DNA of 64,000 bases. Source: Pseudoduganella albidiflava (GTDB lineage: Bacteria > Pseudomonadota > Gammaproteobacteria > Burkholderiales > Burkholderiaceae_D). The stretch lies in assembly GCF_004322755.1 (NCBI RefSeq), contig NZ_CP036401.1, positions 6,944,001-7,008,000 on the forward strand, given 5' to 3'. The first letter of the stretch is position 1. Each line of letters opens with the position of its first letter. This document shows, one piece after another, positions 7,744 through 57,712 of the stretch. A program made the translations under genes and the position numbers. The notes beneath the pieces were generated by a model that saw only the letters and a list, made by a program, of their open reading frames with translations, was not told the origin of the DNA and made no database searches.

Positions 7744-7764
7744 TCAACCTGGACGAGGAAACCC

Positions 7765-8373
<609 letters not shown>

Positions 8374-8459
8374 GCCGCGCGGCAGGCCTGCAGGCCGCGC
8401 GCTTGCATGCCGGCGCACCGTTCACTACCACCCTGCGAGATCGACGGCCCTGTAACGAC

Positions 8460-8480
8460 AAAGCCCACGATGTGGGCTTT
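8460..8480. terminator. Bidirectional terminator between redoxin and toxin-antitoxin genes
   Basis: A 9-bp stem AAAGCCCAC/GTGGGCTTT with the loop GAT, followed by T, lies between convergent genes and serves both. Confidence 0.8.
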
Positions 8481-8485
8481 TCGGG

Positions 8486-9184: not shown

Positions 9185-9223
9185 TGGTGGGATTTCCGCA
9201 CCATTGGCGCAGAAATCCCACCA
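9185..9223. promoter_or_regulatory. Inverted repeat upstream of the toxin-antitoxin operon
   Basis: TGGTGGGATTTC (9185-9196) and GAAATCCCACCA (9212-9223) are perfect 12-bp inverted copies with a 15-base centre, about 28-66 bases upstream of the toxin ATG. This is a natural place for the XRE antitoxin to bind, but it could equally be a hairpin in the divergent direction. The role is inferred. Confidence 0.5.
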
Positions 9224-9371
9224 GTATCGCTATCACCCGGCGAGCCGGGTTGATGCCGCACCAGAATGCTCCGGGTGCAGGACCAATCGTGAGCATCGGC
9301 CGGGCATGTGGGTGAAGGCAAAAACTGGCATCCCACTCCAAGCTCGTGCATAATACCGCCCGTGTCCTATA

Positions 9372-9383
9372 TCTTATATAAGA
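9372..9383. promoter_or_regulatory. Palindromic operator candidate upstream of icd
   Basis: TCTTATATAAGA is a perfect 12-bp palindrome about 268 bases upstream of the icd ATG and overlaps A+T-rich -10-like sequence. From memory, palindromes of this type have been proposed upstream of TCA-cycle genes in betaproteobacteria as sites for a GntR-family regulator. I cannot confirm the match here. Confidence 0.45.
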
Positions 9384-9650
9384 CTTGATCGGCAAGGCAG
9401 GCCTGCCCGGCTACCGGACCCCGACCTCTGGCATAGCGAAACAGCATCATTCCGGACCCCTCAGCAGGGGCTACTGGGGTATGATTTGGCGCTGTCCCAA
9501 GGAGTCTGCACGGCAGAAAGAAGTGTTTTCTACCGCGCAGGCTCCTGGCGCCGCCGGAGCGTCTCGGTGATGAAGGATATTGCGTTGACGCGCGACCAGG
9601 CAGGCGATTTTTCAGTATCAGGAACCCCACGAATTCCGAGGAACGAGCGC

Positions 9651-11885
9651 ATGAGCAATGATCCGACCATTATCTACACGTTGACCGACGAGGCGCCCCT
9701 GCTGGCGACCCACGCATTCCTGCCGGTCGTCAGGACTTTCACCAAGCCCGCCGGCATCCGCGTCGACGAGGCCGATATTTCCGTGGCCGCGCGTATCCTC
9801 GCGAACTTCCCGGAATACCTGACGGAAGAACAGCGCGTGCCCGACGTGCTCTCCGAGCTGGGCAAGAAAACCCTGGAGCCGGACGCGAACATCATCAAGC
9901 TGCCGAACATCAGCGCTTCGGTGGCGCAGCTGCAGGCGGCCATCAAGGAACTGCAGGGCAAGGGCTACAAGCTGCCCGACTACCCGTCCGATCCGAAGAC
10001 CGACGAAGAAAAGTCCATCAAGGCCCGCTACGGCAAGTGCATCGGTTCCGCCGTGAACCCGGTGCTGCGCGAAGGTAACTCCGACCGCCGCGCCCCGCGC
10101 GCCGTCAAGGAATACGCGCGCAAGAACCCGCACTCGATGGCCGAGTGGTCGCAGGCATCGCGCACCCACGTGTCGCACATGACGCACGGCGACTTCTACC
10201 ACGGCGAAAAGTCGATGACGCTGGACCGCGCCCGTGAAGTCAAGATGGAACTGATCACCAAGTCGGGCCAGACCATCGTGCTGAAGCCGAAGGTCGCGCT
10301 GCAGGAAGGCGAGATCATCGATTCGATGTTCATGAGCCGCAAGGCCCTGCTGGACTTCTACGAGAAGCAGATCGAGGATGCCAAGAACACCGGCGTGATG
10401 TTCTCGCTGCACGTGAAGGCGACCATGATGAAGGTGTCGCACCCGATCGTGTTCGGCCACTGCGTGCGCATGTTCTACAAGGAAGCGTTCGAGAAGCACG
10501 GCGCGCTGTTCGACAGCCTGGGCATCAACGTCAATAACGGCATGGCCGACCTGTACAACAAGATCGCCACGCTGCCGGCGTCGCAGCGCGAAGAAGTCGA
10601 ACGCGACCTGCACGCCTGCCAGGAAAACCGTCCGCCGCTGGCGATGGTCGATTCCGCCAAGGGCATCACCAACTTCCACTCGCCGAACGACGTGATCGTC
10701 GACGCGTCGATGCCGGCGATGATCCGCGCCGGCGGCAAGATGTACGGTGCCGATGGCCGCCTGAAGGAAGTCAAGGCCGTGATCCCGGAATCCACCTTCG
10801 CCCGCATCTACCAGGAGATCATCAACTTCTGCAAATGGCACGGCGCCTTCGATCCGCGCACGATGGGCACGGTGCCCAACGTGGGCCTGATGGCCCAGCA
10901 GGCCGAGGAATACGGTTCGCACGACAAGACGTTCGAAGTGCCGGAAGACGGCATCGCCAACATCACCGACCTGGCCACCGGCGAAGTGCTGCTGACGCAG
11001 AACGTCGAGAAGGGCGACATCTGGCGCATGTGCCAGGTGAAGGATGCGCCGATCCGCGACTGGGTCAAGCTGGCCGTCACCCGCGCCCGCAACTCCGGCA
11101 TGCCGGCCGTGTTCTGGCTGGACCCGTACCGCCCGCACGAAAATGAACTGATCAAGAAGGTCACCACGTACCTGAAGGATCACGACACCACGGGCCTGGA
11201 CATCCAGATCATGTCGCAGGTGCGCGCGATGCGCTACACGCTGGAACGCGTGATCCGCGGCCTGGATACCATCTCCGTCACCGGCAACATCCTGCGCGAC
11301 TACCTGACCGACCTGTTCCCGATCATGGAACTGGGCACGTCGGCCAAGATGCTGTCGATCGTGCCGCTGATGGCCGGCGGCGGCATGTACGAAACGGGCG
11401 CCGGCGGTTCGGCACCGAAGCACGTGCAGCAGCTGACCGAGGAAAACCACCTGCGCTGGGATTCGCTGGGCGAATTCCTGGCCCTGGCGGTGAGCCTGGA
11501 AGACCTGGGCATCAAGACCGGCAGCGCGCGGGCCAAGCTGCTGGCCAAGACGCTGGACGCGGCCACCGGCAAGCTGCTGGACAACCGCAAGTCGCCGTCG
11601 CCGAAGACCGGTGAGCTGGACAACCGCGGCTCGCAGTTCTACCTGTCGCTGTACTGGGCCCAGGAACTGGCGAACCAGACGGAAGACGCGGAACTGGCCG
11701 CCAAGTTCGCGCCGCTGGCCAAGACGCTGGGCGAGAACGAGCAGAAGATCGTTGCCGAACTGCTGGAAATCCAGGGCAAGCCGGCCGACATCGGCGGCTA
11801 TTACCAGCCGGACAGCGCGAAGGTGAAAGCCGTGATGCGCCCGAGCGCCACGTTCAACCAGGCGCTGGAAGTGCTGGGCGCCTGA
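9651..11885 (+). CDS. icd: NADP-dependent isocitrate dehydrogenase, monomeric type
   Basis: 744 residues, the normal length of monomeric IDH (about 740). The N-terminus [20 protein letters not shown] is characteristic, as are [16 protein letters not shown] (substrate region), [14 protein letters not shown] and [20 protein letters not shown]. It oxidises and decarboxylates isocitrate to 2-oxoglutarate in the cytoplasm, making NADPH. The ATG at 9651 has a GAGGAA ribosome site; the longer upstream frame has neither homology nor a ribosome site. A strong terminator follows 20 bases after the stop, so this is a single-gene unit. Confidence 0.97.
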
Positions 11886-11904
11886 TAGCTCCTTGCTGCA
11901 TGTG

Positions 11905-11938
11905 AAAACGGCCGGTTGCGCGAGCAACCGGCCGTTTT
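11905..11938 (+). terminator. Rho-independent terminator of icd
   Basis: A 15-bp perfect stem (11905-11919 with 11924-11938), loop GCGA, then a T-run. Confidence 0.92.
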
Positions 11939-11966
11939 TTCGTTGCCATCTCCCGAAAGGAAAGAC

Positions 11967-12641
11967 ATGTCGCGCACCAGCTGGATATTGCTGATGCTTG
12001 CAGGAGCGGGGCTGGTCGCCGTGGTACCGCGCGTGGCGGAGTATCTTTTGCCGCCGATCGGCAATGAGCTCGATCCCGCACACCACACCTACCCTCGGCT
12101 TGCCGGGCAGTCCAGCAACGAAATCGAGATGGCGGGCACGATTTCCCCACGATTCGGCCTGCGCCTGACGGCCCATTATGAGACCAATGGCGCCCGTGGC
12201 TGCAAGTCGATCCCGTCGTTCCTGGCCGGCTACCTGGAAGGGGCAAGCTTCCCGTCCGAGGTAAGTGTTCCGCTTCGCGTCGAAAGACGTGGCACGGCCT
12301 TCACGGCGCGGTTGACGGTGGACCGCTACATTCCGGGGCCATGCGACTGGCGGCTCGGGTACGTGAAGGCCGTGATATCGAAAGGAAGCCTCGTCAGCCT
12401 GCCCAACTACATCATCGTCGCCCGGAGTGATTTCAACTGGCCACCGAAGGATACGCCGTTCGAGAACTCATCGGATAGCCCGGTGACCCTGCGCTGCTCG
12501 TTCGAGCAGCTGAAAGGGCTGCCTGCCAACGCTTCGATGAATGCCTGTGTCATTCCTGGCGTCCGGATCAGCGACAAATACCGGCATTACCTGGTCCGTC
12601 CAACGAAGCGGATCGTCGTCCATATCATGGACTACGATTGA
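11967..12641 (+). CDS. Uncharacterised secreted or membrane-anchored protein
   Basis: 224 residues from an ATG with an AAGGAAAG ribosome site. Residues 5-22 (SWILLMLAGAGLVAVV) form a signal peptide or N-terminal anchor; the rest is hydrophilic with several cysteines that could form disulfides (ARGCKSIPSF, PGPCDWRL, TLRCSFEQL, MNACVIPG). The four Cys-bearing segments and the alternating polar strands suggest a small periplasmic beta-rich domain. I do not recognise the family. The gene stands alone between icd and a convergent PEP-CTERM gene. Confidence 0.7.
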   Translation: MSRTSWILLMLAGAGLVAVVPRVAEYLLPPIGNELDPAHHTYPRLAGQSSNEIEMAGTISPRFGLRLTAHYETNGARGCKSIPSFLAGYLEGASFPSEVSVPLRVERRGTAFTARLTVDRYIPGPCDWRLGYVKAVISKGSLVSLPNYIIVARSDFNWPPKDTPFENSSDSPVTLRCSFEQLKGLPANASMNACVIPGVRISDKYRHYLVRPTKRIVVHIMDYD

Positions 12642-12701
12642 ACCGGTTCAGGTAACACTGGCGGGAGATCTGCCTGATTGGCAGGCGCGCGATTCGCTGG
12701 T

Positions 12702-13337
12702 TCAGCTGCGCACCTTGCGCCACCGCGCCAATCCCAGCACACCCAGGCCCCCCAGCAGCAGCAAGCCCGTCGCCGGCTCCGGCACCGGCGACACGCCGAC
12801 AGCGACGTCCGTCATGCCGGGCAGGTAGCCATCGCCCAGCGTGTCGATGCGAAAGCCCGTGAAATACTCGCCTGCACCGGTCGACTGGAAGCCCTGGAAC
12901 GTCAGGCCGCTCACGCCGTCGGCCAGGGCCACGCCGTTGAACGTGTAGCTGGCCCGGTTGGTGGTGATCGTGATGTCGACCGGCCCTTCGTTCACCGCCG
13001 CATCGAAGCCGAACAGGCTGTAGCCCGCCGCGATGGTACCCGCCAGCCCGCTGAAGTAATTGTTCGAGACCAGCGTGCGCAAGCTGCCGATGCCGAATTC
13101 GGTGCCGGCGCCGACGGTGATGTTCATGTCGGACGCATAGGTGACATCGCCGCGGGTGAAGGGATCGCCCGGCACGTTGAAGCCGGCGCCGAAATCGTCG
13201 AAATTGCTGTTGTAGGCAATGGTGCCGAGCGCATTGAACGCGGCGCGGTCGGTGACGAGGAGGACATCGGCGGAGGCCGTCGTGCCGGCGGCTGCCAGCA
13301 GCGCGGCCACGGCCAGGTGAGCGAGTCGGGTATTCAT
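12702..13337 (-). CDS. PEP-CTERM sorting-signal protein
   Basis: 211 residues. A signal peptide (1-23) is followed by a beta-rich extracellular domain of about 160 residues (FDDFGAGFNVPGDPFTRGDV and similar). The C-terminal sorting signal is VPEPATGLLLLGGLGVLGLARWRK: a PEP motif, a hydrophobic helix and a basic end. Such proteins are processed by an exosortase and exported with exopolysaccharide; no exosortase is in this window. The gene is transcribed in the same direction as the GH43 gene upstream and begins 24 bases after its stop, so the two may share a transcript. Confidence 0.92.
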   Translation of the reverse strand: MNTRLAHLAVAALLAAAGTTASADVLLVTDRAAFNALGTIAYNSNFDDFGAGFNVPGDPFTRGDVTYASDMNITVGAGTEFGIGSLRTLVSNNYFSGLAGTIAAGYSLFGFDAAVNEGPVDITITTNRASYTFNGVALADGVSGLTFQGFQSTGAGEYFTGFRIDTLGDGYLPGMTDVAVGVSPVPEPATGLLLLGGLGVLGLARWRKVRS

Positions 13338-45136: not shown

Positions 45137-46147
45137 TCAACGGTCCAGTTTCGCCACCGAGGCCCGCAGCGTCACCGTCACCGGGAAATCGCGCTCGACC
45201 GGCCGCTTCAGGTCGTAGCACAGGTTCAGCAGCTGGTTGATGCCGTTCAGCGTCATCTGCTGCCATGGCATGCGCACCGACGTCAGGCGCGGGGCCGCAT
45301 ACTCCGCGCTGGGCGTGTCGTCGTAGGCCAGCACCGACAGGTCATGCGGCACGCGGATGCCCGCTTCCTGGAAATGCGACAGCGCGCCCACGGCCATCTC
45401 GTCGTTGGCGCAGAACAGCGCGGTGGGCTTGCGGCCGGACGCCACCAGCTCGCGCGCCGCGGCCCAGCCGGCGGCCGGCGAGAAGTCGCCTTCGCGCCGC
45501 CACATCGCCGTGGTGTCGATGCCCGCCGCCGCCAGCTCGGCGAGAAAGCCATCGATGCGGGCCACGCTGTCTTCCAGCTCCATCGGGCCGGTCAGCAGCG
45601 CGATGTCGCGGTGGCCGTTCTCCAGCAGCGTGCGCGCGGCCAGGCGGCCCCCCAGCATGTGGTCGACCGTGAAGCACTGGTCCGGGATGGTCGCGAAACC
45701 ATGGTTCAGCGCGACCAGGCGCGACAGCCGGCTGCCGGCCACCGCGAGGTCGCCCTCGTCCAGGGCGCTGGTCATCACGATCAGGCCATCGCAGCCGCGC
45801 TCGATCAGGAACTCGATGCCTTCCAGGGCCTGGCGGCGCGCATTGCCGAGGCCCACGCCGAACGCCACCACCATGTGCAGCCCCGCCGCGCGCAATTCGG
45901 TATCGATGATCTGCAGGATCGGCGTGAAGAAGGTGCCGGACAGCGCCGGGATGTACACGCCGATCATCTTCGACGAACCGGACAGCAGGGCCCGGGCCGC
46001 ATGCGATGGCCGGAAGCCCAGTTCGTCGATGGCCTTGCGCACGCGCTCCAGCGTGGCTGGCGACACCGGGCCGCTGCCATTGATCGCGCGCGACGCGGTG
46101 CCCAGGCCCACACCCGCCAGGCGGGCGACGTCTTTGATGGTTGCCAC
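45137..46147 (-). CDS. LacI-family transcriptional regulator
   Basis: 336 residues. The headpiece TIKDVARLAGVGLGTASRAINGSGPVSP is followed by the hinge RPSHAARALLSGSSKMIGVY and a periplasmic-binding-like sensor (about 62-330) with ALFCANDEMAVGALSHFQEAG and DLSVLAYDDTPSAEYAAPRL. It probably binds the palindromes at 47278-47291 and 48272-48289 that precede the GH16 and TonB receptor genes, and releases them when a glucan breakdown product is present. The target link is inferred from site type and proximity. Confidence 0.92.
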   Translation of the reverse strand: MATIKDVARLAGVGLGTASRAINGSGPVSPATLERVRKAIDELGFRPSHAARALLSGSSKMIGVYIPALSGTFFTPILQIIDTELRAAGLHMVVAFGVGLGNARRQALEGIEFLIERGCDGLIVMTSALDEGDLAVAGSRLSRLVALNHGFATIPDQCFTVDHMLGGRLAARTLLENGHRDIALLTGPMELEDSVARIDGFLAELAAAGIDTTAMWRREGDFSPAAGWAAARELVASGRKPTALFCANDEMAVGALSHFQEAGIRVPHDLSVLAYDDTPSAEYAAPRLTSVRMPWQQMTLNGINQLLNLCYDLKRPVERDFPVTVTLRASVAKLDR

Positions 46148-46408: not shown

Positions 46409-47203
46409 TCATTGAGCCTTCACATGCTTCATGATGTTCAGGAACGTGTCGGTCCAGTACACCTTGCGGTTGTCGGCCAGGTACTTCACCAGTTCCTCGT
46501 GCGCGGCGCTCGAATTGGCGAGGTGGTCGCCGCCGATGCCGTGGAAGGTGAACGCCACCATCGTGCCCTTGTCCGCCGCTTCCTTGACCATCGCGATCAG
46601 TTGCTGGCCGGTGAGGCCGACGGGCGCCACCACCGGTACCCGGTACGGATCCAGCTTCGCCATCGACGGCACGGCGCCGCGGCCGACGCTTGCCTTGATC
46701 GCCACGAAGTCGGCGTGCACCGCCGGCAGGTACTCCTGCCCGCCGGCCGCCAGCAGGTCGCCGCAAGGCGCGGTGAAGGTGCGTTCGCGCCGCCCGTCGA
46801 TCGCGTACAGCATCGTGTTGGCCAGCGTGACCTGGTCCTTCATCTGCGCCACGCTCGTCGTGTCCAGGTCGCGGTGCGGTGCCACCCAGCCGCGCTCCGG
46901 CAGCGAGCGCCGGCACTGGTGGAACAGCGAGTGGTTGGCCAGCTCATGGCCCCGTTGCGCGGCGGCGCGCCACTCGGGCAGGCGCTTGTCGATGGTCTGG
47001 CTGGAGAGCGTAAGGTAGAACGTGCCCTTCACGCCGTATTTGTCCAGCGTGGGGATCGCATGATCGAGCTGCGAATCGGCGGCATCGTCATAGGCCAGGC
47101 TGACGGCCGCTTTGGCGCCGTTCGGCCAGGGGAAGGTTTCGGCGGCGCCGGCGCCGGTGGCTGCGCCGGCCAGCGCCAGCAGGATCCAGAAGGTTGTCTT
47201 CAT
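46409..47203 (-). CDS. Secreted polysaccharide deacetylase (NodB domain)
   Basis: 264 residues with a signal peptide (1-19). NodB motifs are SLAYDDAADSQLD (two Asp), HELANHSLFHQC (His pair), TAPCGDLLAAGG (third motif) and FTFHGIGGDH. It should remove acetyl groups from a polysaccharide or peptidoglycan outside the cytoplasm. It diverges from the GH16 gene across a LacI-type operator, so the two are probably co-regulated. Confidence 0.88.
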   Translation of the reverse strand: MKTTFWILLALAGAATGAGAAETFPWPNGAKAAVSLAYDDAADSQLDHAIPTLDKYGVKGTFYLTLSSQTIDKRLPEWRAAAQRGHELANHSLFHQCRRSLPERGWVAPHRDLDTTSVAQMKDQVTLANTMLYAIDGRRERTFTAPCGDLLAAGGQEYLPAVHADFVAIKASVGRGAVPSMAKLDPYRVPVVAPVGLTGQQLIAMVKEAADKGTMVAFTFHGIGGDHLANSSAAHEELVKYLADNRKVYWTDTFLNIMKHVKAQ

Positions 47204-47277
47204 CTCGTACCCGGGTATGTGACAAGAACGCAACGCATGCTGCGGTGCAGAGTGCGGCGCGGATTGCACTGTTAAAG

Positions 47278-47291
47278 TGGAAACGTTACCA
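47278..47291. promoter_or_regulatory. LacI-type operator between deacetylase and GH16 genes
   Basis: TGGAAACGTTACCA is a near-perfect palindrome (one mismatched pair) centred on AACGTT. It shares the core of the perfect site at 48272-48289 and lies between divergent starts at 47203 and 47345. Confidence 0.75.
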
Positions 47292-47344
47292 TACAACGAC
47301 ATTCATCTTTGCATGCGCCTGCCGCGCCGTCAATCCGGAGAACC

Positions 47345-48190
47345 ATGGCTGCTTTCCATCGACGCTCACCGACCGCCACCGGCATCGCTGCCGCCATGGC
47401 ACTGGCGCTGCTGGCGCTGGCCGACGCCGCGCCGGCCATGGAAGCGCCTCCCGGCTGGAAGCTGGCATGGGCGGATGAATTCGATGTCGACGGCCTGCCC
47501 GATCCGGCGAAGTGGGATTACGACACCGCATTCAACCGCACCGGCTGGCACAACAGGGAACTGCAGTATTACACCAGCGCGCGCCGCGAAAACGCCGAAG
47601 TGAAGAATGGCCGCCTGGTCATCACCGCCCGCAAGGAAGCGCTGGCGTCGATGCCGGACTACGGCGGCCAGGCCTACACGTCGGCACGGCTGGTCACGCG
47701 GGGCAAGGCCAGCTGGACGCACGGCTTCATCGAAGTGCGCGCGAAGCTGCCGTGCGGCCCGGGCAGCTGGCCGGCGATCTGGATGCTGGGCACCGGCGGC
47801 AAGTGGCCGGCCGACGGCGAGATCGACATCATGGAACACGTGGGCCACAAGCCCGGCGAAATCCTCGGCAGCATCTATACGAATGCGCAGAACTGGCCGC
47901 GTGGCACCGGCAAGACCAGCAAGACGATGGTGCCCGACGCGTGCGGCGCCTTCCACGACTACCAGCTCACGTGGACGCACGACCGGATCCTCGTGGGTGT
48001 CGATGGGCGCAATTACGCCGAACTGGCGAACCCGAAGGATGGCGACTACGACAAGTGGCCGTTCGACCGGCCGCAGTACCTGCTGCTGAACGTCGCGGTG
48101 GGCGGCGACCTCGGTGGCGCGGTGCGCGACGACAGCCTGCCATGGCGCATGGAAGTGGAATACGTGCGGGTCTTCCAGCCCGCCAGATGA
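47345..48190 (+). CDS. GH16 endo-beta-1,3-glucanase (laminarinase-like)
   Basis: 281 residues. A signal peptide (about 1-30) is followed by a single GH16 jelly-roll domain. The catalytic motif is DGEIDIMEHVG, with Glu159 and Glu164 as nucleophile and acid/base and Asp161 between them. WDYDTAFNRTGWHNRELQYY and PCGPGSWPAIWMLG are typical of bacterial beta-1,3-glucanases. The start is the ATG with CCGGAG four bases upstream. It is secreted to cleave laminarin-like glucans for uptake by the TonB receptor downstream. Confidence 0.93.
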   Translation: MAAFHRRSPTATGIAAAMALALLALADAAPAMEAPPGWKLAWADEFDVDGLPDPAKWDYDTAFNRTGWHNRELQYYTSARRENAEVKNGRLVITARKEALASMPDYGGQAYTSARLVTRGKASWTHGFIEVRAKLPCGPGSWPAIWMLGTGGKWPADGEIDIMEHVGHKPGEILGSIYTNAQNWPRGTGKTSKTMVPDACGAFHDYQLTWTHDRILVGVDGRNYAELANPKDGDYDKWPFDRPQYLLLNVAVGGDLGGAVRDDSLPWRMEVEYVRVFQPAR

Positions 48191-48271
48191 GTTTTTACAA
48201 CAGTATCGTCCAACAACAAATCTGTTCCGATTGACAACGTAGAAGTGCCCACCTACCATTGAGCGACCTGA

Positions 48272-48289
48272 TATGGAAACGTTTCCATA
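48272..48289. promoter_or_regulatory. LacI-type operator upstream of the TonB receptor
   Basis: TATGGAAACGTTTCCATA is a perfect 18-bp palindrome, 99 bases upstream of the receptor ATG, matching the shape of LacI-family sites with a central CG. Confidence 0.85.
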
Positions 48290-48387
48290 CACCTCTGGAA
48301 TACCTTGGAAAGCAAGGTGGACCGGATGGATTGGCGCCGCCAGGCAGGAACTCATCGGTAGAAAACCATAAGAACACAGGAGACCAC

Positions 48388-51363
48388 ATGCACTATCCAA
48401 GGACCAAACAGAAACTGATCGCCCTGGCCGTGTCCAGCGCCTGCGCCGCCACCGCGCTGCCGGCATGGGCACAGGACATTGCCCAAAGCCAGGGCGCCGA
48501 CCTGTCGTCGTCGCAGCCGGTGCAATCGGTGGTGGTGACCGGCATCCGCGCCTCGATGCAATCGTCGCTGAACCTGAAACGCAATTCCGACGGCATCGTC
48601 GACGGCATCGTCGCCGAGGACATCGGCAAGTTCCCCGACACGAACCTGGCCGAATCGCTGCAGCGCATTTCCGGCGTGTCGATCGACCGCTCGATCGGCG
48701 AAGGCTCGAAGGTCACGGTGCGCGGCGTGGGCCCCGACTTCAACATGGTGCTGCTGAACGGCCGCCAGATGCCGACGTCGAACCTGGGCGACCTGAATGG
48801 CCGCGCCTTCGACTTCGCCAACCTCGCTTCCGAGGCGGTGTCGCAGCTGCAGGTGTACAAGACCAGCCGCGCCGAAACGCCGACCGGCGGCATCGGCGCC
48901 ACGCTGAACGTGATGACGGCGCGCCCGCTCGACCGCCCCGGCATGCAGGCTTCCGTCGGGGTGAAAGGCGTCTACGACAAGTCGGCCTCGAACCTGCCGG
49001 GCGACGTCAAGGATGGCAAGCGCGTGACGCCGGAAATCTCGGGCATCTACAGCAATACCTGGAACGACAACATGTTCGGCGTGGCGGTCACCGCCAGCTA
49101 CCAGGAACGCAACCTGGGCTACAGCACGGCATCCGTGGGCAATGGCTGGAAGGGCCCGTACCGGGGCAGCTCCACCGCGGGCGGCACGATTCCCCAGCCC
49201 GGCGCGCCCGGCTCGGAAAACATCACCAACCGGCCCGGCGCCAACGACGTGTATTCGCTGCCGCAAAACCTGAACTACGCGTTCAACGGCGTGCAGCGCG
49301 AGCGCACCAACGGCCAGCTGACGTTCCAGTTCGCGCCGCGCAAGGATCTCACCACCACGCTCGACTACACCTACTCGCAGAACAAGATCCATACGCGCCG
49401 CCAGGACCTGTCGGCGTGGTTCAACTTCGGCCCGTCCGCCTCCAGCTGGACCGATGGCCCGGCCGCCGGCCCGCTGGTGTACACCGAGTTCCTCCCTGCC
49501 GGGACCAGCGACATCGCCATGGGCGGCGCCGACTTCGCCACCGTCAGCGAAAACAAGTCGGTCGGCTTCAACACGCTGTGGAAGGTCAATTCCGCGCTGC
49601 GCCTGGAACTGGACGTGCACCGTTCCACCGCCGAATCGCAGGCCGACAGCCCGTGGGGTTCGGACAACGTGCTGGGCACCGCGTCCTTCAGCCGCGGCGA
49701 CACCACGGCCGACTTCAGCGAGGATTTCCCCGTGCTGTCGATCGCCGGTGCCGATTTCGCGCGCGCACCGCAGCAGGTGACCGGCTCGGCGTTCCGCAAC
49801 GGCTACATGAAAGGCGAAATCAGCCAGGCCCAGTTCAAGGGCCGCCTGAAGGTGATGGAATCGTCGCAGCTGAACTTCGGCCTGTCCGCCACCAAGGTCG
49901 ACAACCGTTCCGCCTTCTCGACGATGCAGCGCGATACCTGGGGCGGCGCCACCAGCCCGGCCGACTACCCGAGCAGTGTGTGGCATCCGGCCACCGTGCG
50001 CGGCTACTTCGACAAGATCGACGGCTCCGGCAACCCGAAACTGTTCAACAACTTCTACACCTTCAACTTCGGCGAAGTGCGCGACCTGGCGATCAAGGCA
50101 TCCGGCCGGCCGGACCTGTATTCGGTCAAGGGCACCTGGGATACCGACCAGCGCACCGAAGAAAAATCCAAGGCGCTGTACCTGCAGTTCAATACCGACT
50201 GGGACACGGCGCTGCCGATCCACACCGCCGTCGGCGTACGCTACGAGAAGACCGACATCGTCTCTTCCGCGCTGGTGCAGACCGCCACCGGCATCTCATG
50301 GGTATCGCAGAATGAATTCCCGGTGCAGTTCGGCGCCCCGGACTTCACGACGCTGACCGGCAAGTACAACAACCTGCTGCCCAGCATCGATACCGATATC
50401 GAACTGCGCGAAGACATGAAACTGCGCCTGTCGTACGGCGAAACCATCGGGCGCCCCCGCTATGACCAGATCCAGGGCGGCACGGTGCTCAGTAACCTGG
50501 CGCGCGTGGACGGCGGCACCGGCACTGCCGGCAACCCGGGGCTGAAGCCGGTGGAGTCAAAGAACCTCGACCTGTCGTACGAGTGGTACTACGGCAAGCA
50601 GAACTTTTTCGCGCTGGGCTTCTTCAAGAAGAACCTGGATAACTATGCCGGCCAGTCCCAGGTCGACGCCAACCCGTTCAACCTGCACACGCCGGTGGGC
50701 GGAGCACTGTGGAACCTGGCCCTGGCCAACGGCTGCGCCAGCGCCGATACCACGTGCATCCGCAATTACATCTTCCGCAACCATCCGACGGCACCGGGCG
50801 TCACGCCAGGCAAGGATGATGCCTCCGGCAACGCCACCGGCACCATCGTCGGCCAGCCGGGCGATCCGCTCGCGAACTTCCGCATCACGTCGTTCTCGAA
50901 CCAGAAGAAGGCCAGCCTGAAAGGCTTCGAGGTAAACGTGCAGCACATGTTCGGCAACAGCGGCTTCGGGGTGTCGGCCAACTACACGTATGTCGATTCC
51001 GGCCTGGGCTTCGACAACGCCAGCGCCGGCGAGCAGTTCGCGCTGGTCGGCCTGTCCGATTCGGCCAACCTGATCGGTATCTACGAAAACGACAAGTGGA
51101 ACGTGCGCGCCGCGTTCAACTGGCGCGACAAATTCCTCGCTTCCACCTTCGATGGCGCGGGACCGAACCCGGTCTACACGGAAGCCTACGGCCAGTTCGA
51201 CCTGTCGGTGGGGTATGCCATCACGCCGCAGCTGTCGATGCAGTTCGAAGGCATCAACCTGACCAATGAAACGACGCGCCAGCACGGCCGTAACGAGCGC
51301 ATGCTGGTCAATGCCACCCAGGCTGGCGCGCGCTATATGTTGGGTCTGCGCTACAAGTTCTGA
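48388..51363 (+). CDS. TonB-dependent receptor for glycans (TIGR01782 type)
   Basis: 991 residues. A signal peptide (to PAWAQ, about 28) is followed by the TonB box region PVQSVVVTGIRASMQSSLNL, a plug (AEDIGKFPDTNLAESLQRIS, VTVRGVGPDFNMVLLNGRQM, TSRAETPTGGIGATLNVMT) and a barrel ending RYMLGLRYKF. The plug sequence is of the Xanthomonas/Caulobacter type used for oligosaccharide import. CAGGAG precedes the ATG at 48388. The operator upstream and the GH16 gene 197 bases before it tie it to beta-glucan uptake. Confidence 0.94.
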   Translation: MHYPRTKQKLIALAVSSACAATALPAWAQDIAQSQGADLSSSQPVQSVVVTGIRASMQSSLNLKRNSDGIVDGIVAEDIGKFPDTNLAESLQRISGVSIDRSIGEGSKVTVRGVGPDFNMVLLNGRQMPTSNLGDLNGRAFDFANLASEAVSQLQVYKTSRAETPTGGIGATLNVMTARPLDRPGMQASVGVKGVYDKSASNLPGDVKDGKRVTPEISGIYSNTWNDNMFGVAVTASYQERNLGYSTASVGNGWKGPYRGSSTAGGTIPQPGAPGSENITNRPGANDVYSLPQNLNYAFNGVQRERTNGQLTFQFAPRKDLTTTLDYTYSQNKIHTRRQDLSAWFNFGPSASSWTDGPAAGPLVYTEFLPAGTSDIAMGGADFATVSENKSVGFNTLWKVNSALRLELDVHRSTAESQADSPWGSDNVLGTASFSRGDTTADFSEDFPVLSIAGADFARAPQQVTGSAFRNGYMKGEISQAQFKGRLKVMESSQLNFGLSATKVDNRSAFSTMQRDTWGGATSPADYPSSVWHPATVRGYFDKIDGSGNPKLFNNFYTFNFGEVRDLAIKASGRPDLYSVKGTWDTDQRTEEKSKALYLQFNTDWDTALPIHTAVGVRYEKTDIVSSALVQTATGISWVSQNEFPVQFGAPDFTTLTGKYNNLLPSIDTDIELREDMKLRLSYGETIGRPRYDQIQGGTVLSNLARVDGGTGTAGNPGLKPVESKNLDLSYEWYYGKQNFFALGFFKKNLDNYAGQSQVDANPFNLHTPVGGALWNLALANGCASADTTCIRNYIFRNHPTAPGVTPGKDDASGNATGTIVGQPGDPLANFRITSFSNQKKASLKGFEVNVQHMFGNSGFGVSANYTYVDSGLGFDNASAGEQFALVGLSDSANLIGIYENDKWNVRAAFNWRDKFLASTFDGAGPNPVYTEAYGQFDLSVGYAITPQLSMQFEGINLTNETTRQHGRNERMLVNATQAGARYMLGLRYKF

Positions 51364-51387: not shown

Positions 51388-51423
51388 GGAGCGGCTTCGC
51401 AGGCAGCGGAGCCGCTCCGATTT
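51388..51423 (+). terminator. Terminator of the TonB receptor gene
   Basis: GGAGCGGCT (51388-51396) pairs with AGCCGCTCC (51410-51418), followed by GATTTTT. It may attenuate rather than end the transcript before the halogenase cassette. Confidence 0.75.
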
Positions 51424-51482: not shown

Positions 51483-53036
51483 ATGTCCCAGCCGCCCGTT
51501 TCCAGCCTGGTCAACCATGTGGTCATCGTCGGCGGCGGATCGGCCGGCTGGCTGACCGCCGGCGTCATTGCCGCCGACCATCCAGCGCTTACCGTGACGC
51601 TGGTCGAATCGCCGGACGTGGCGCCGATCGGCGTGGGCGAGGGCACCTGGCCATCGATGCGCGACACGCTGCACCGTCTCGGCGTGTCCGAATCGGCGTT
51701 TTTCCGCGAGTGCGATGCGGCGTTCAAGCAGGGATCCCGCTTCAACGGCTGGCGCAGCGGCGGCGGCGCGGAAGACTACTACTTCCATCCGTTCGTGCTG
51801 CCCCAGGGCTTCGGCGAGGCCGACCTGGTGGAAAGCTGGCAGCGCGATGTTCCGGGCGTGCCGTTCGCCGACCTGGTGAGCTTCCAGCCGCACCTGTGCG
51901 TGCATGGCCGCGCACCGAAGCAGCCGGCCACGCCGGAATTCGCCGCCGTGGCCAACTACGGCTATCACCTCGATGCGGGCAAGTTCGGCGTGTTCCTGCG
52001 CAAGCACTGCCTGGAAAAGCTGGGCGTGCGCTACGTGCCGGACCACGTCACCGCCGTCAACAGCCATGACAATGGCGACATCGCCTCGCTGCAGACCAGG
52101 GAACATGGCGCCCTCGCAGGCGATCTGTTCATCGACTGCACCGGCATGCAGTCGCTGCTGCTGGGCCGCCACTACGGCGTGCCGCTGCTGCACCGCAAGG
52201 ACATACTGTTCAACGACAGCGCGCTGGCCGTGCAGGTGCCCTACGAGCGCGACGACAGCCCGATCGCCTCGCAGACCACCTCCACCGCGCAGCGTGCCGG
52301 CTGGATCTGGGATATCGGCTTGCCGACCCGGCGCGGCATCGGCCACGTGTATTCGAGTGCGCACACGAGCGATGAACAGGCGGAAGCGGACCTGCGCGCC
52401 TATATCGGCAAGGACGATATTCCCGCGCCGCGCAAGCTGACGTTCCAGCCCGGCTACCGCGAGCAGTTCTGGCACCGCAACGTGGTCGCCATCGGCCTGT
52501 CCGCCGGCTTCATCGAACCGCTGGAAGCTTCCGCGCTGGCGCTGGTGGAAATGTCGGCGGCGATGGTCAGCGACGATCTTCCGGCCACGCGCGAGGCCAT
52601 GGACATCGTGGCACGCCGCTTCAACGACGCCTTTACCTATCGCTGGGAGCGCGTCATCGAGTTCCTCAAGCTGCACTATGTGCTGAGTGGCCGGACGGAT
52701 CCGCGCAGTACCTCGGATTACTGGCACGACAACCGCCGCGCCGAAACGATTCCCGCGCGGCTGCAGGAACTGCTGGCGCTGTGGCGCCACCGGCCGCCAT
52801 CGCGCCTGGACTTCAACCGCATCGAGGAAGTCTTCCCGTCGGCCAGCTGGCAGTACGTGCTGTACGGGATGGGCTTCCAGCCCGACCGCGAACGCATCAC
52901 GCGGCGTGGTTCCACGGGCAGCGCCGGCGGCTACTTCCGCGAAGCCGCCGAGCTCACGCGCAAGATGCTGCGCGCGCTGCCGTCGAACCGCGAACTGATC
53001 GACCATATCCGCCTACACGGCCTACAGAAAATCTAG
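51483..53036 (+). CDS. Tryptophan-halogenase-like flavoprotein, first copy
   Basis: 517 residues. The FAD motif HVVIVGGGSAGWLTA is at 12-25. The lysine that binds hypohalous acid in PrnA has its counterpart at Lys82 (DAAFKQGSRFNGW). The partner Glu of PrnA corresponds to Glu348 in GFIEPLEAS. The halogenase WxWxI motif is present as GWIWDIGL (Trp274 and Trp276), with Gly in place of the usual Pro. Relatives next to TonB receptors are widespread, but their substrate is not established. It is the first gene of a five-gene-spaced cassette with SapC, JmjC and a second halogenase. Confidence 0.9.
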   Translation: MSQPPVSSLVNHVVIVGGGSAGWLTAGVIAADHPALTVTLVESPDVAPIGVGEGTWPSMRDTLHRLGVSESAFFRECDAAFKQGSRFNGWRSGGGAEDYYFHPFVLPQGFGEADLVESWQRDVPGVPFADLVSFQPHLCVHGRAPKQPATPEFAAVANYGYHLDAGKFGVFLRKHCLEKLGVRYVPDHVTAVNSHDNGDIASLQTREHGALAGDLFIDCTGMQSLLLGRHYGVPLLHRKDILFNDSALAVQVPYERDDSPIASQTTSTAQRAGWIWDIGLPTRRGIGHVYSSAHTSDEQAEADLRAYIGKDDIPAPRKLTFQPGYREQFWHRNVVAIGLSAGFIEPLEASALALVEMSAAMVSDDLPATREAMDIVARRFNDAFTYRWERVIEFLKLHYVLSGRTDPRSTSDYWHDNRRAETIPARLQELLALWRHRPPSRLDFNRIEEVFPSASWQYVLYGMGFQPDRERITRRGSTGSAGGYFREAAELTRKMLRALPSNRELIDHIRLHGLQKI

Positions 53037-53052
53037 AACAGACGAGACACGC

Positions 53053-53778
53053 ATGACGAACCACGTTTTACTGAACAACGTCCAGCACAAGGACCTGAAG
53101 GTCATCACCCGCCACGGCCCCGGCCTCGGCGACGAGCAGATGTACGTTGCCACCTTCCCCGCCGAGTTCCGCACGCTGCAGGCGCATTACCCGATCGTGT
53201 TCCGCAAGGCCGAAGATGGCCGCGGCTTCGAGCCGATCGTGCTGTTCGGCTTCCAGGCCGGTGAAAACCTGTTCCTGAAAGCCGATGGCTGGGATGCACC
53301 GGAAATCCCGCTGATGATCGAACGCCAGCCGTTCCTGATCGGCCGCAATGGCGACGAGATGCTGGTGCACGTGGACCTGGACAGCCCCCGCGTAGTTAAA
53401 TCCGATGATTCCCGTACCGAAGGCGAGCCGGCCTTCCTGCCGCACGGCGGCATCACCGAATACCTCGAACGCATCAACTCGATCCTGTTCACGATCCACG
53501 AAGGCTTGCAGAGCAACGTGGCCTTCGTCGACGCGCTGCTGAAGTACGAGCTGCTGGAATCGTTCGTGTTCGACATCGAACTGGACGACGGCTCGCAAAA
53601 CCGCCTCGCCGGCTTCTACACGATCCACGAGGAACGCCTGCACGCGCTCGACACGGAAGCCATCGGTGCGCTGCACCGGGCCGGCTACCTGCAGCCGATC
53701 CACATGGTGCTGGCGTCGCTGTCGCAATTCCGCGCGCTGATCGACCGGAAGAACCGGCAGCATGCTGCCCGTCGCTGA
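53053..53778 (+). CDS. SapC-family protein
   Basis: 241 residues, no signal. Characteristic segments are VATFPAEFRTLQAHYPIVFR, VLFGFQAGENLFLKADGW, MLVHVDLDSPRV and LDDGSQNRLAGFYTIHEERL. SapC-like proteins are named after a Campylobacter S-layer locus, but most members lie beside TonB receptors and tryptophan halogenases, as here, and their biochemical role is unknown. It overlaps the JmjC-type gene by 17 bases. Confidence 0.9.
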   Translation: MTNHVLLNNVQHKDLKVITRHGPGLGDEQMYVATFPAEFRTLQAHYPIVFRKAEDGRGFEPIVLFGFQAGENLFLKADGWDAPEIPLMIERQPFLIGRNGDEMLVHVDLDSPRVVKSDDSRTEGEPAFLPHGGITEYLERINSILFTIHEGLQSNVAFVDALLKYELLESFVFDIELDDGSQNRLAGFYTIHEERLHALDTEAIGALHRAGYLQPIHMVLASLSQFRALIDRKNRQHAARR

Positions 53779-54766
53779 ACTGCGCGGCCTCACGCCGCGC
53801 GACCTGAATGACCGCATCCTGACGTCCACGCAGCCGCTGCTGCTGCGCGGGCTGGTGGCGCAGTGGCCGATGGTGCGCGCCGCGCAGGCATCGCAGGAAG
53901 CAGCGTCCGCGTACCTGAAGCGCTTCTATACCGGCGCGCCGGTCGTGGCGATGCTCGGCCTGCCGGACATCGGCGGCCGCTTCTTCTACAACGACGACCT
54001 GTCCGGCTTCAATTTCCGGCCCGTGCACGCGCCCCTGGGCGGCGTGCTGGACGAGCTGGAAGGGCATCGCAACGACGAGCAGCCGCCGGCGATCTACGTG
54101 GGTTCCACCACGATCGATACCTTCCTGCCCGGTTTTCGCGCCGAGAACGACGTCGACCTGGGCGGCGGCCGCGAGCCACTGGCCTCGATCTGGATCGGCA
54201 ACCGCACGCGCATCGCCGCGCACTACGACGCGCCGGACAACCTGGCCTGCGTGACGGCGGGCCGGCGCCGCTTCACGCTGTTCCCGCCCGAGCAGTTGCC
54301 GAACCTGTACGTGGGGCCGCTGGACTTCACGCCGGCCGGGCAGGCGATCAGCCTGGTCGACCTGCATGCGCCGGACTTCGAACGCTTCCCGCGCTTTGCC
54401 GAGGCACTGGAACATGCCCAGGTGGCCGAAATGGAACCGGGCGACGCGCTGTTCATTCCCAGCATGTGGTGGCACCACGTCGAGGCGCTCGACGCCTTCA
54501 ACGTACTGGTGAATTACTGGTGGCGCCAGTCGCCGCACTACATCGATACGGCGACCAACGCGCTGATGTACGCGATCATGACGATCCGCGACCTGCCGCC
54601 GGCGCAGCGCAAGGCGTGGGAAGGATTGTTCCGCCATTACGTGTTCGAGCACGACGAACAGACTTCCGCCCACATTCCGCCGGCCGCGCAGCGCATGCTG
54701 GCACCGATGACCGAGGACATGTCGCGCGCGCTGCGCGCCCAGCTGCTGAAGCGCCTGAACCGCTGA
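53762..54766 (+). CDS. Cupin-like JmjC/FIH-type 2-oxoglutarate oxygenase
   Basis: 334 residues. The iron triad appears as HxD in RIAAHYDAPDN (His154, Asp156) and His238/His239 in SMWWHHVEALDAF. LVNYWWRQSPHYIDTATNAL follows. This is the Pass1/FIH-like subgroup that accompanies TonB receptors and tryptophan halogenases. It probably hydroxylates a protein or small molecule in the cytoplasm using iron, oxygen and 2-oxoglutarate. The 2-oxoglutarate residues were not identified. Confidence 0.88.
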   Translation: MLPVAELRGLTPRDLNDRILTSTQPLLLRGLVAQWPMVRAAQASQEAASAYLKRFYTGAPVVAMLGLPDIGGRFFYNDDLSGFNFRPVHAPLGGVLDELEGHRNDEQPPAIYVGSTTIDTFLPGFRAENDVDLGGGREPLASIWIGNRTRIAAHYDAPDNLACVTAGRRRFTLFPPEQLPNLYVGPLDFTPAGQAISLVDLHAPDFERFPRFAEALEHAQVAEMEPGDALFIPSMWWHHVEALDAFNVLVNYWWRQSPHYIDTATNALMYAIMTIRDLPPAQRKAWEGLFRHYVFEHDEQTSAHIPPAAQRMLAPMTEDMSRALRAQLLKRLNR

Positions 54767-54798
54767 AGCCACTACAAGAAGGCAAGAAGGAGACGAAC

Positions 54799-56301
54799 AT
54801 GGAACAACAACGCCAGAAAAAACCGGTGCGCCGCGTGGTGATCGCCGGCGGCGGCACGGCGGGATGGATGGTCGCCGCCGGGCTGTCGAAATCGCTGGGC
54901 AAGCTGCTGGACATCAAGCTGATCGAGTCCGAGGAGATCGGCACGGTCGGCGTCGGCGAAGCCACCATTCCCACGCTGCTCAATTTTCACCACCTAATGG
55001 AAATCAACGAGCAGGAGTTCATGGCCGAGACCATGGCCACCTTCAAGCTGGGCATCAGCTTTGAAAACTGGCGCAACGTGAACGAGGACTATATCCACTC
55101 GTTCGGCACCACCGGCACCGACCACTGGACGGCCGGCTTCCAGCACTTCTGGCACAAGGGCCGCGAGCGCGGCATCGCCGGCGACTACGGCGACTACTGC
55201 CTGGAACTGAAGGCCGGCCTGAAGAACCGCTTTGCGCACCTGCCGAACAACGGCATGAACTACGCCTACCACATGGATGCCGGCCGCTACGCGAAATTCC
55301 TGCGCCGCTTCTCGGAACGCTATGGCGTGCAGCGCGTGGAAGGCAAGATCGTCGAGGTCCGCAAGAACCTGCTGAGCGGCGACATCACCGCCCTGCGCCT
55401 GGACTCCGGCGCCGAACTCGAGGGCGACCTGTTCATCGACTGCACCGGTTTCCGCGGCCTGCTGATCGGGCAGACCATGGGCGTGGAATACGAGGACTGG
55501 TCGCACTGGCTGTTCAACGACAGCGCCGTGGCGCTGCAGACGAAATCGGTGCGCGATGCGGTGCCGTACACCCGCTCGATCGCGCGCGACGCGGGCTGGC
55601 AGTGGCAGATCCCGCTGCAGCACCGCGTCGGCAATGGCCTGGTGTACTCCACCCGCTACACGGACGACGAAACGGCGCTACGCACGCTGCAGGCGGCCGT
55701 CGATGGCGAACCGTTGATGACGCCGCGCGTGATCCGCTTCACGCCGGGCCAGCGCAAGCAGACGTGGAAGGGCAACTGCATCGCCATCGGGCTGGCCAGC
55801 GGCTTCCTGGAACCGATCGAATCGACCAGCATCCACCTGATCCAGCGCGGCATCATCCGGCTGATGCAGATGTTCCCGCAGGATGGCATCAGCCAGGCCG
55901 ACATCGACGAATTCAACCAGCAGGCCGACTACGAAATCCAGCACATCCGCGATTTCATCATCCTGCACTACAACGTGACGAACCGCCGCGACACGCCGTA
56001 CTGGCGCGACGCCGCCACGATGAAGCTGCCGCCGTCGCTGCAGCACCGCATCGACCTGTTCCGCGACACCGGCCGCGTGTTCCGCGTGCCGAACGAACTG
56101 TTCGCCGAGAACTCGTGGATCCAGGTGATGCTGGGCCAGGGCATCCTGCCCGCCTCGCACCACCAGACCGCGGACCTGATGGGCGATGAAGAACTGGCCC
56201 GCTTCCTCGGCAACATCAGCGGCACCATCGACCGTACCGTGGCCCAGCTGCCGTCGCACCAGAAATACGTCGAACAGTACTGCTCCGGCACCGGGTGGTA
56301 A
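54799..56301 (+). CDS. Tryptophan-halogenase-like flavoprotein, second copy
   Basis: 500 residues. VVIAGGGTAGWMVA is the FAD motif; Lys83 sits in TFKLGISFENW, Glu341 in GFLEPIESTSI, and the halogenase motif WQWQIP is complete (Trp267, Trp269, Pro272). All hallmarks of a flavin halogenase are kept, unlike the first copy, whose motif lacks the proline. AAGGAG precedes the ATG. A flavin reductase would be needed and none is nearby. The product and substrate are unknown. The stop is followed 17 bases later by a REP/MITE-like element. Confidence 0.92.
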   Translation: MEQQRQKKPVRRVVIAGGGTAGWMVAAGLSKSLGKLLDIKLIESEEIGTVGVGEATIPTLLNFHHLMEINEQEFMAETMATFKLGISFENWRNVNEDYIHSFGTTGTDHWTAGFQHFWHKGRERGIAGDYGDYCLELKAGLKNRFAHLPNNGMNYAYHMDAGRYAKFLRRFSERYGVQRVEGKIVEVRKNLLSGDITALRLDSGAELEGDLFIDCTGFRGLLIGQTMGVEYEDWSHWLFNDSAVALQTKSVRDAVPYTRSIARDAGWQWQIPLQHRVGNGLVYSTRYTDDETALRTLQAAVDGEPLMTPRVIRFTPGQRKQTWKGNCIAIGLASGFLEPIESTSIHLIQRGIIRLMQMFPQDGISQADIDEFNQQADYEIQHIRDFIILHYNVTNRRDTPYWRDAATMKLPPSLQHRIDLFRDTGRVFRVPNELFAENSWIQVMLGQGILPASHHQTADLMGDEELARFLGNISGTIDRTVAQLPSHQKYVEQYCSGTGW

Positions 56302-56318
56302 ATCCACAACACCCGCAC

Positions 56319-56478
56319 CGGGGACTGTCCCCGATTTTGAGCAACAGTTTTCTTGCAGGCACGGGATTTTTCGGCATTCCGACAAAAAATTCGTGCCGCG
56401 CTTGGCCAGATAAGCCAGTTAGAAGAATGCGGTGTAAAAACCACAAAATTGTTGCCAAAAATCGGGGACTGTCCCCCG
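56319..56478. mobile_element. REP/MITE-like element with nested inverted repeats
   Basis: The left end CGGGGACTGTCCCCGATTTT (from 56319) and the right end, the same sequence inverted (CGGGGACTGTCCCCC to 56478, preceded by AAAAATC), form terminal inverted repeats extending about 30 bp with GCAACA(G/A)TTTT. Inside, GGCACGGGATTTTT pairs with AAAAAATTCGTGCC. The whole 160-bp unit can fold into a cruciform and has no coding capacity. GGGGACTGTCCCC elements are, from memory, dispersed in related genomes. Confidence 0.8.
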
Positions 56479-56569: not shown

Positions 56570-57085
56570 TTGCGCATCATCCCTGCCATTGGCGCCGTTC
56601 TGGCGCTGTCGACCTTGCTGGCGCAGGCCCAGGAATACTCGATTAAAGCCGACGATCCCCAGACTGGCAGTAATCTCCGCCGTAGTACCGCACGCATCAG
56701 CTTCCCACCCGACAAGACCTATGCCGAATTGCCGGAGGCGGACAAGGCCCGCCTGCGCGCCGTGTACGAGAACATGGGACCGGATGACGAGCCGCCGTAT
56801 CCGGCGCGCGGGTATGGCAAGCTGATGCGGTCAATCAGTTCCGCCCAGAACAGCGTGCAGATCGAGGGCATGGTGGAGATGGGCGTGATCGTCGGTGCCG
56901 ATGGCCGGGCCGACAGCGTCAAGGTCTACCAGTCGCCCGACCCGAAGACGACGCAGGTGATCGCCAGCGTGCTGATGCTGGAGAAATACAAGCCGGCGCT
57001 GTGCAATGCCAAACCGTGTACCCAGGAATTCCCTTTTGCCATCCGCTTCTCGCTGGAGAACCAACAGCTGAAAACCTACCGCTAG
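56570..57085 (+). CDS. TonB C-terminal-like secreted protein, first tandem copy (TTG start)
   Basis: 171 residues from a TTG with GGAG six bases upstream; no better start exists. A signal peptide (1-20, LAQAQ) precedes a Lys/Pro-rich segment and a TonB-C-like domain (GMVEMGVIVGADGRADSVKV, then VLMLEKYKPALCNAKPCTQEF, with two cysteines that may bond). It shares about half its residues with the next gene, so the two arose by tandem duplication. The function is unknown. No membrane span or ExbB/D genes are present, so it is unlikely to energise receptors. Confidence 0.78.
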   Translation: MRIIPAIGAVLALSTLLAQAQEYSIKADDPQTGSNLRRSTARISFPPDKTYAELPEADKARLRAVYENMGPDDEPPYPARGYGKLMRSISSAQNSVQIEGMVEMGVIVGADGRADSVKVYQSPDPKTTQVIASVLMLEKYKPALCNAKPCTQEFPFAIRFSLENQQLKTYR

Positions 57086-57217
57086 CGGCCCCGCGATGTT
57101 GCATGAAGCCGATCAAGGGCCACCTGGATTTCCGGACCCTGGCCGATTTGATCATGGCTGGTTTTTCGATGAACATCGATGCGTCATGAACCGCGTTTCC
57201 ACCAGGGAGTCGTCAAC

Positions 57218-57712
57218 TTGCGAATCGCTCTTGCCTTTGGCGCCATGCTGGTACTGTCGACCAGCCTCGCCCACGCCCAGCAGTACCGCATGAAGGAGGA
57301 GGAGCCGCGCACCGGTACCCTCCTCAAGCGCGAGAATATCCGCCTCAGCCTGCCGCCCGACAAGACCTATGCCGAATTGTCCGAGACGGACAAGGCGCGC
57401 CTGCGCGGCATGTATGAACACATGGCGCCCGGCGACGAGCCGCCGTTCCCCGCGCGCGGCTACCGCAGCCTGATGCGGGCGATGTCCGCCGTGCAGGAGC
57501 GCCTGCAGATCGCCGGCAACGTCGACATGGGCGTCATCGTCGGCGCGGATGGCCGCGCCAGCGAAATCAAGGTGTACGGATCGTCCGACCCGCAGCTGAC
57601 GACCGTCATCGCCAACGTGCTGGTGCTGGAAAAGTACAAGCCCGCGCTGTGCGGCGGCACGCCGTGCACCCAGGAATTCCCGTTCCGCATGAATTTCAGG
57701 CTGCGGCACTGA
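57218..57712 (+). CDS. TonB C-terminal-like secreted protein, second tandem copy (TTG start)
   Basis: 164 residues from a TTG at 57218, aligned with the TTG of the first copy and preceded by GGAG eight bases upstream. An in-frame ATG at 57179 gives an N-terminus without homology and is less likely. A signal peptide (LAHAQ) is followed by the same layout as its neighbour: DKTYAELSETDKARLRGMYE, VDMGVIVGADGRASEIKVYG, KYKPALCGGTPCTQEFPF. Both copies use the rare TTG start. Confidence 0.78.
   Translation: MRIALAFGAMLVLSTSLAHAQQYRMKEEEPRTGTLLKRENIRLSLPPDKTYAELSETDKARLRGMYEHMAPGDEPPFPARGYRSLMRAMSAVQERLQIAGNVDMGVIVGADGRASEIKVYGSSDPQLTTVIANVLVLEKYKPALCGGTPCTQEFPFRMNFRLRH

Follow-up and report, generated by a model that had tools for sequence, protein, structure and literature searches.

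What do two flavoproteins of the tryptophan-halogenase type do when their genes stand, together with those of a SapC-family protein and an iron oxygenase, directly behind a TonB-dependent receptor for glycans? The question is raised by a 64-kb window (the whole stretch of DNA that was analysed) of the single-contig, 7.44-Mb genome of Pseudoduganella albidiflava, in which the receptor is followed by four closely spaced genes, here called HalA, SapC, Cup8 and HalB. We find that this cassette is real and conserved, that its linkage to receptors is real and goes beyond chance, and that it has no assigned role in the literature searched, which covered no preprints and few subscription papers. Tentatively, we read the four genes as a receptor-modifying cassette that would act oxidatively on the receptor ahead of its export. 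The first-pass annotation of the window had held that no halogenation of a glycan, receptor or inducer is established, and the literature agrees insofar as no listed paper attributes a function to halogenase-SapC genes beside TonB receptors: among the matches listed for one search halogenase is not mentioned, among those listed for another TonB and halotryptophan do not occur together, and PMC1790865 contains neither "halogenase" nor "SapC".

Linkage of the cassette to one branch of receptors

Retrieved by similarity to the window SapC, and hence not a random sample, 26 SapC loci from named genomes (Massilia, Pseudoduganella, Lysobacter, Steroidobacter, Rheinheimera, Catenovulum and others) all have a receptor directly upstream and Cup8 after SapC, with HalA in 18, HalB in 22 and all five genes in the same order in 15; HalB is missing from four loci, of which L031 breaks off within Cup8 and L024 stops about 1 kb beyond it. 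An evenly drawn sample of the class, 229 genomes in all, contained 41 SapC matches spread over 32 genomes, 8 of these matches lying within halogenase-bearing cassettes. It also gave 23 full-length halogenases scoring 370 bits or more, with no more than six candidates scored in most genomes; in the genomes searched for receptors, 16 of 19 full-length halogenases lie no more than 5 kb from a TIGR01782 gene. All four halogenases of the P. albidiflava genome are near such a gene, a placement with a chance of about 6% for each. The first-pass claim that such genes recur beside carbohydrate receptors in related bacteria thus holds, as does the linkage in other genomes whose absence it had named beforehand as a refutation.

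A tree of 72 receptors places all 32 SapC-labelled rows in one branch of 37 rows (Shimodaira-Hasegawa-like approximate likelihood ratio test, SH-aLRT, 99). The branch also takes in a partial row, a second receptor from Catenovulum and three P. albidiflava receptors that have no cassette genes next to them. Receptors that have halogenases and no SapC fall elsewhere in the tree, in at least three places. A receptor of the SapC-linked branch occurs in 11 of 79 genomes of a family-level sample; ten of these also have SapC, and the eleventh genome, assembled to 80% completeness, has HalA next to the branch receptor at a contig end. In genome G003, which gave no SapC match, a branch receptor and a halogenase are both present, and both lie at contig ends.

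The genes behind the receptors are not always the same four. Besides the full cassette we find SapC-Cup8-HalB, HalA-SapC-Cup8, HalA-SapC and SapC-HalB next to receptors, and also three halogenases, halogenase pairs, HalB alone and Cup8 alone. A fixed four-step pathway fits badly with this pattern, since the subsets separate freely and the receptor is the constant.

Individual loci add further arrangements. In L074 (4135-8960) three consecutive halogenase genes follow the receptor, the middle one (WFRSIP/EALLFS) looking degenerate, and at L079 (6353-10210), in the P. albidiflava genome, a receptor is followed by a lone Cup8 homologue with neither halogenase nor SapC. The gammaproteobacterial locus L076 (4094-13258) has a complete cassette, a second, convergent Cup8, and a divergent GH16 gene and HpaB-type phenol hydroxylase; a convergent second Cup8 is also seen in L071. 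At L038, again in the P. albidiflava genome, a SapC-free, HalB-type halogenase (9215-10768) lies in a starch-type locus with receptor, alpha-amylase and GH97 genes (7320-9017 and 10701-12833), and carries the motifs WQWRIG and KPLEST, the latter with Lys in place of the first Glu of EPLEST.

Enzyme signatures and the neighbours of SapC

All four proteins match the profiles proposed for them in the first-pass annotation, PF04820 for HalA and HalB, PF07277 for SapC and Cupin_8/JmjC for Cup8 (scores in the table below). The FAD (flavin adenine dinucleotide) motif begins at residue 17 in both flavoproteins (GGGSAG in HalA, GGGTAG in HalB), and the Lys/Glu pair is present as Lys82/Glu348 in HalA and Lys83/Glu341 in HalB, as had been read earlier. 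In alignments that leave out the small loci L001-L009 (duplicates) and open reading frames (ORFs) of less than 75% of full length, the catalytic Lys is kept in 27 of 27 HalA and 34 of 34 HalB rows; the Glu is kept in all 27 HalA rows and in 33 of the 34 HalB rows. The WxWxIP motif is complete only in HalB (WQWQIP from residue 267), again as first noted, with WIWDIG from residue 274 of HalA; what that reading had not brought out is that the HalA variant is conserved in its own right, as all 24 HalA rows from SapC-linked loci read WxWDI[GA], whereas WxWxIP stands in the three HalA rows whose loci lack SapC. Judged by sequence, WIWDIG is therefore a conserved alternative signature and not decay, and HalA is a distinct, maintained type, to which the solved Shewanella protein 2pyx also belongs.

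Cup8 aligns with FIH through the HxD...H iron site (73 bits), and the corresponding residues, His154, Asp156 and His238, are present in 36 of 36 rows. At the place of FIH Lys214, the residue that binds 2-oxoglutarate (2OG), Cup8 has Arg169 (Arg in 35 of 36 rows), which could replace the 2OG-binding Lys. The predicted structure of SapC is confident, but structure comparison gave no match.

SapC also occurs apart from receptors, and its neighbours there are informative. Of the 33 class-sample SapC copies outside cassettes, we read 21 neighbourhoods (20 fetched, and L037 as the P. albidiflava copy), and in 16 of these 21 receptor-free loci a giant ORF lies within 2 kb of SapC on the same strand, compared with none in 20 fixed control stretches, which came from 14 of these genomes. 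These ORFs span 934-3116 codons, many being cut by the end of the stretch; D, N, T, G and S are abundant in them, Arg is scarce and Cys almost absent. Of eight that were scanned, two have a two-partner-secretion domain, one belongs to a repeat family and five have no Pfam domain. Two Gemmobacter SapC genes adjoin VCBS-domain proteins, the Thiodictyon SapC has unrelated neighbours, and L037 (4916-14540) has the gene of a 1307-codon DUF4214 protein on one side of SapC and a type I secretion set (ABC, HlyD and OEP genes) on the other. SapC thus seems to partner exported surface proteins, with or without halogenases, and it is from this that the cassette is best read as modifying its receptor before export.

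The receptor as candidate substrate, and its rivals

If the receptor is the substrate, its sequence may point to the residue concerned. Between 37 SapC-linked receptors and 35 from outside the branch only two columns separate perfectly, Trp387 and Arg1011 (each 37/37 against 0/35), and in further branch rows Trp387 is present in 13 of the 13 that cover the column and Arg1011 in 11 of 12. Trp387 lies within an otherwise variable stretch; with no homologous receptor structure found by sequence, it has no three-dimensional placement. The second receptor of L024 was left out of the linked set and L033 out of the first column comparison, in which Trp387 stood at 9% among 32 unlinked receptors, its carriers there being the three in-branch paralogues from P. 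albidiflava. We also compared columns by enzyme presence (HalA, 24 receptors with and 12 without; HalB, 28 and 6; Cup8, 31 and 5), and find none that followed HalA and only weak cases for HalB, while Tyr340 (49276-49278) tracks Cup8 (31/31 against 0/5) and Asn375 (49381-49383) nearly does so (30/31 against 0/5; it fails in L071, L033, L132 and L117). The five receptors without Cup8 are mostly deep branches and three changes are needed on the tree; given about a thousand columns and few independent cases, the association with Cup8 is a lead only.

These observations can be joined into a candidate mechanism. The precursor of the receptor would be synthesised in the cytoplasm and, still unfolded, be recognised and bound there by SapC; HalA and HalB, supplied with reduced FAD, would halogenate or oxygenate an aromatic residue, Trp387 being the best candidate, and Cup8 would hydroxylate another receptor side chain. 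The modified precursor would then be exported and folded in the outer membrane, the modification perhaps tuning ligand binding or the durability of the receptor. We infer the receptor as substrate, and with it the residue, the chemistry and the benefit. In its specific form, with a SapC-guided cassette that halogenates and hydroxylates side chains including Trp387 before export and with SapC recognising exported surface proteins in general, the proposal is doubtful.

Several points weigh against the receptor as substrate. We know of no precedent for modification of a barrel protein before export. Trp387 may be plain branch inheritance or a ligand-binding residue: common ancestry could explain both separating columns too and would be expected to yield such columns, 92 being conserved to 95% or more among the linked receptors, and the three unlinked P. 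albidiflava paralogues inside the branch keep Trp387. The samples examined held no branch receptor from a genome clearly without the cassette, so inheritance and modification cannot be separated there. Trp387 is absent from receptors that have halogenases without SapC, and so cannot serve all cases, and receptors of loci lacking HalA retain it, as do those of loci lacking HalB, so that it is tied to neither. In genome G167 the cassette is not directly behind a branch receptor. As for SapC, 5 of the 21 receptor-free loci have no giant ORF, a plasmid copy (L091) lies among unrelated genes, the composition thresholds for giant ORFs were fixed after the loci had been seen, and the label of surface protein rests partly on composition, five of the eight scanned lacking a Pfam domain.

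In the main rival explanation, which we regard as unlikely, a small aromatic compound (a signal, inducer or ligand of the indole type) would be made or altered by the cassette and act together with the receptor; the receptor itself would stay unmodified and would import or export the effect of the product. BrvH and the Xanthomonas enzymes brominate indole derivatives and not free tryptophan (PMC5945002, PMC7336383; both available in excerpt), and 83 of 103 such enzymes lie outside biosynthetic clusters according to the available passages of PMC8269204. The indole preference of these assayed relatives suits a peptidyl tryptophan as well as a small indole, and the BrvH authors, in the passages available, doubt indole as the natural substrate in view of the slow rate (PMC5945002). 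Nor does the cassette hold a scaffold-making gene; subsets of one to four genes suit a shared substrate better than a pathway, and the link of SapC to giant secreted-type ORFs would be left unexplained. That halogenation plays no part, with the flavoproteins acting simply as monooxygenases or in a redox or structural capacity, is rather improbable. HalA does lack the IP of WxWxIP, a motif proposed to block monooxygenase activity (PMC5945002, as excerpted), but the Lys and Glu of halogenation are kept almost throughout the rows counted above; hydroxylation by such enzymes would in any case be compatible with receptor modification. Quite improbable, too, is a substrate other than the receptor, namely another exported protein of the locus or cell surface recognised by SapC: SapC can adjoin secreted-type proteins that are not receptors, but with the queries used no surface protein other than the receptor recurs in all 26 loci (genes without a query were not tallied), and GH16 and the deacetylase are not constant among them.

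The imported glycan deserves separate mention, as the first-pass annotation had left open a post-uptake system acting either on a protein or on aromatic groups attached to the glycan; the protein half of that suggestion, with the receptor as the protein, is favoured here, and the glycan half is unlikely. That the enzymes act on aromatic groups of the imported glycan or released with it, such as phenolic esters, would suit the position of the cassettes in glycan-uptake loci and the HpaB-type phenol hydroxylase near one of them (L076), but we consider it very improbable. The hydrolases near cassettes (GH16, GH3, GH1, GH81, one GH95, and a beta-galactosidase with an agarase) and other gene neighbours point to beta-glucan, agar or fucosylated glycans, and for the SapC-free halogenase to a starch-type locus; beta-glucan, agar and starch-type glycans do not, to our knowledge, carry aromatic rings or esters. 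In L036, L069, L070, L072 and L073 no glycoside hydrolase was found among the scanned neighbours, which were chosen ones, including one set of 30 proteins. Glycan halogenation was ruled out as the leading idea by these differing hydrolases and the non-aromatic glycans they indicate.

Receptor modification, if confirmed, would matter beyond this locus. Enzymes of the tryptophan-halogenase type are common outside biosynthetic clusters, and those studied have no known native substrate; the ties of the cassette to a receptor branch, and of SapC to surface proteins, offer a concrete substrate and residue for ordinary proteomics. Directed halogenation would then join the modifications of outer-membrane proteins as a new kind, the enzyme-directed halogenation of a large membrane protein, and the SapC family would gain a role.

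Locus layout and comparison with known systems

On the plus strand the order is GH16, receptor, hairpin, HalA, SapC, Cup8 and HalB, and a single run of four genes behind a glycan receptor is found with the coordinates and families of the first reading. The TIGR01782 receptor, GH16 and LacI regulator together identify a carbohydrate-utilisation locus, putatively for glycan uptake, again in line with that reading. The window SapC is 93% identical to that of Pseudoduganella umbonata, and the locus of that species (L012) as a whole differs little from the one described here.

Features of the P. albidiflava locus, in window coordinates
Feature	Position	Strand	Evidence
LacI-family regulator, divergent	45137..46147	-	Pfam LacI/Peripla_BP_3
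Polysaccharide deacetylase-like protein	46409..47302	-	PF01522, 57.1 bits
GH16 glucanase-like protein	47309..48190	+	PF00722, 75.6 bits
TonB-dependent receptor, proposed cassette substrate	48259..51363	+	TIGR01782, 635.6 bits (cut-off 310); groups with SapC-linked receptors
Receptor Trp387 codon, candidate modified residue	49417..49419	+	Branch-specific column
Receptor Arg1011 codon	51289..51291	+	The other perfect branch-specific column
Terminator-like hairpin, receptor/cassette gap	51388..51418	+	13 pairs (10 G-C), then T-rich tail
HalA, tryptophan-halogenase-fold flavoprotein, WIWDIG motif, 517 aa	51483..53036	+	PF04820, 380.9 bits (curated cut-off 21)
SapC, proposed recognition or carrier partner	53053..53778	+	PF07277, 218.6 bits (curated cut-off 28.9)
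Cup8, FIH-like JmjC/Cupin_8 oxygenase	53762..54766	+	PF13621, 250.6 bits; JmjC_2, 24.0 bits
HalB, tryptophan-halogenase-fold flavoprotein, full WxWxIP, 500 aa	54799..56301	+	PF04820, 633.4 bits (curated cut-off 21)

The receptor is more likely to start at the ATG at 48388, ahead of a predicted signal peptide; the start of Cup8 overlaps the end of SapC by 17 bases, and an 812-aa ORF from 53863 consists of HalB and an open stretch upstream of it. A hairpin 3' of the receptor is similar in 29 of 38 loci, compared with 23 of 160 shuffled controls and 12 of the 28 unlinked receptors. It would favour receptor over enzyme output, for which it is weak evidence, unlinked receptors also often having one. 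Directly 3' of the cassette are two tandem secreted-looking paralogues (56570-57085 and 57179-57712) whose TonB C-terminal matches are weak, at 26.0 and 24.4 bits for a cut-off of 24.6. The palindrome GGGGACTGTCCCC occurs twice in the window (56320-56332 and 56464-56476), with T-rich sequence after each copy, and the pattern GGGGACTGTCCCCNNTTTT fits 13 genome sites, compared with none for the reversed control pattern: a dispersed terminator-like repeat.

Among characterised proteins, the best structural relatives of HalB by sequence are Xcc4156 (PDB 6y1w, 755.6 bits), the nearest, and BrvH (6frl, 444.4 bits), which have the same motifs and whose native substrates are not known (PMC7336383, from excerpts); BrvH, too, has a second halogenase gene upstream (PMC5945002, likewise). 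The window cassette differs in its tie to a TonB receptor and SapC, the term TonB being absent from both papers and SapC from the passages available. The Shewanella frigidimarina protein 2pyx, 9ltb from Altererythrobacter and 9lu2 from Pseudoalteromonas are close relatives recorded only as putative tryptophan halogenases. Related enzymes of the peptidyl-tryptophan kind do work on ribosomally made polypeptides: QhpG, whose target in the cytoplasm is a Trp of QhpC (PMC7876137), and MibH and SrpI, which act on peptides (PMC12615548; both sources in part). HalA falls far below the QhpG cut-off (38.8 bits; cut-off 240) and the LodB cut-off (27 bits; cut-off 400), as does HalB (20.9 and 19.9 bits), and no leader-core precursor of the ribosomally synthesized and post-translationally modified peptide type was identified at the locus, where no search for short peptide ORFs was made. 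By sequence, Cup8 shares its iron site with FIH, which like JMJD5 and JMJD7 is a JmjC protein hydroxylase. SapC shares its family name with the sapCDEF S-layer locus of Campylobacter fetus (PMC4943207, in excerpt), to which the surroundings of L037 are similar; the C. fetus copy accompanies a secretion system, whereas the window copy accompanies a receptor and oxidative enzymes.

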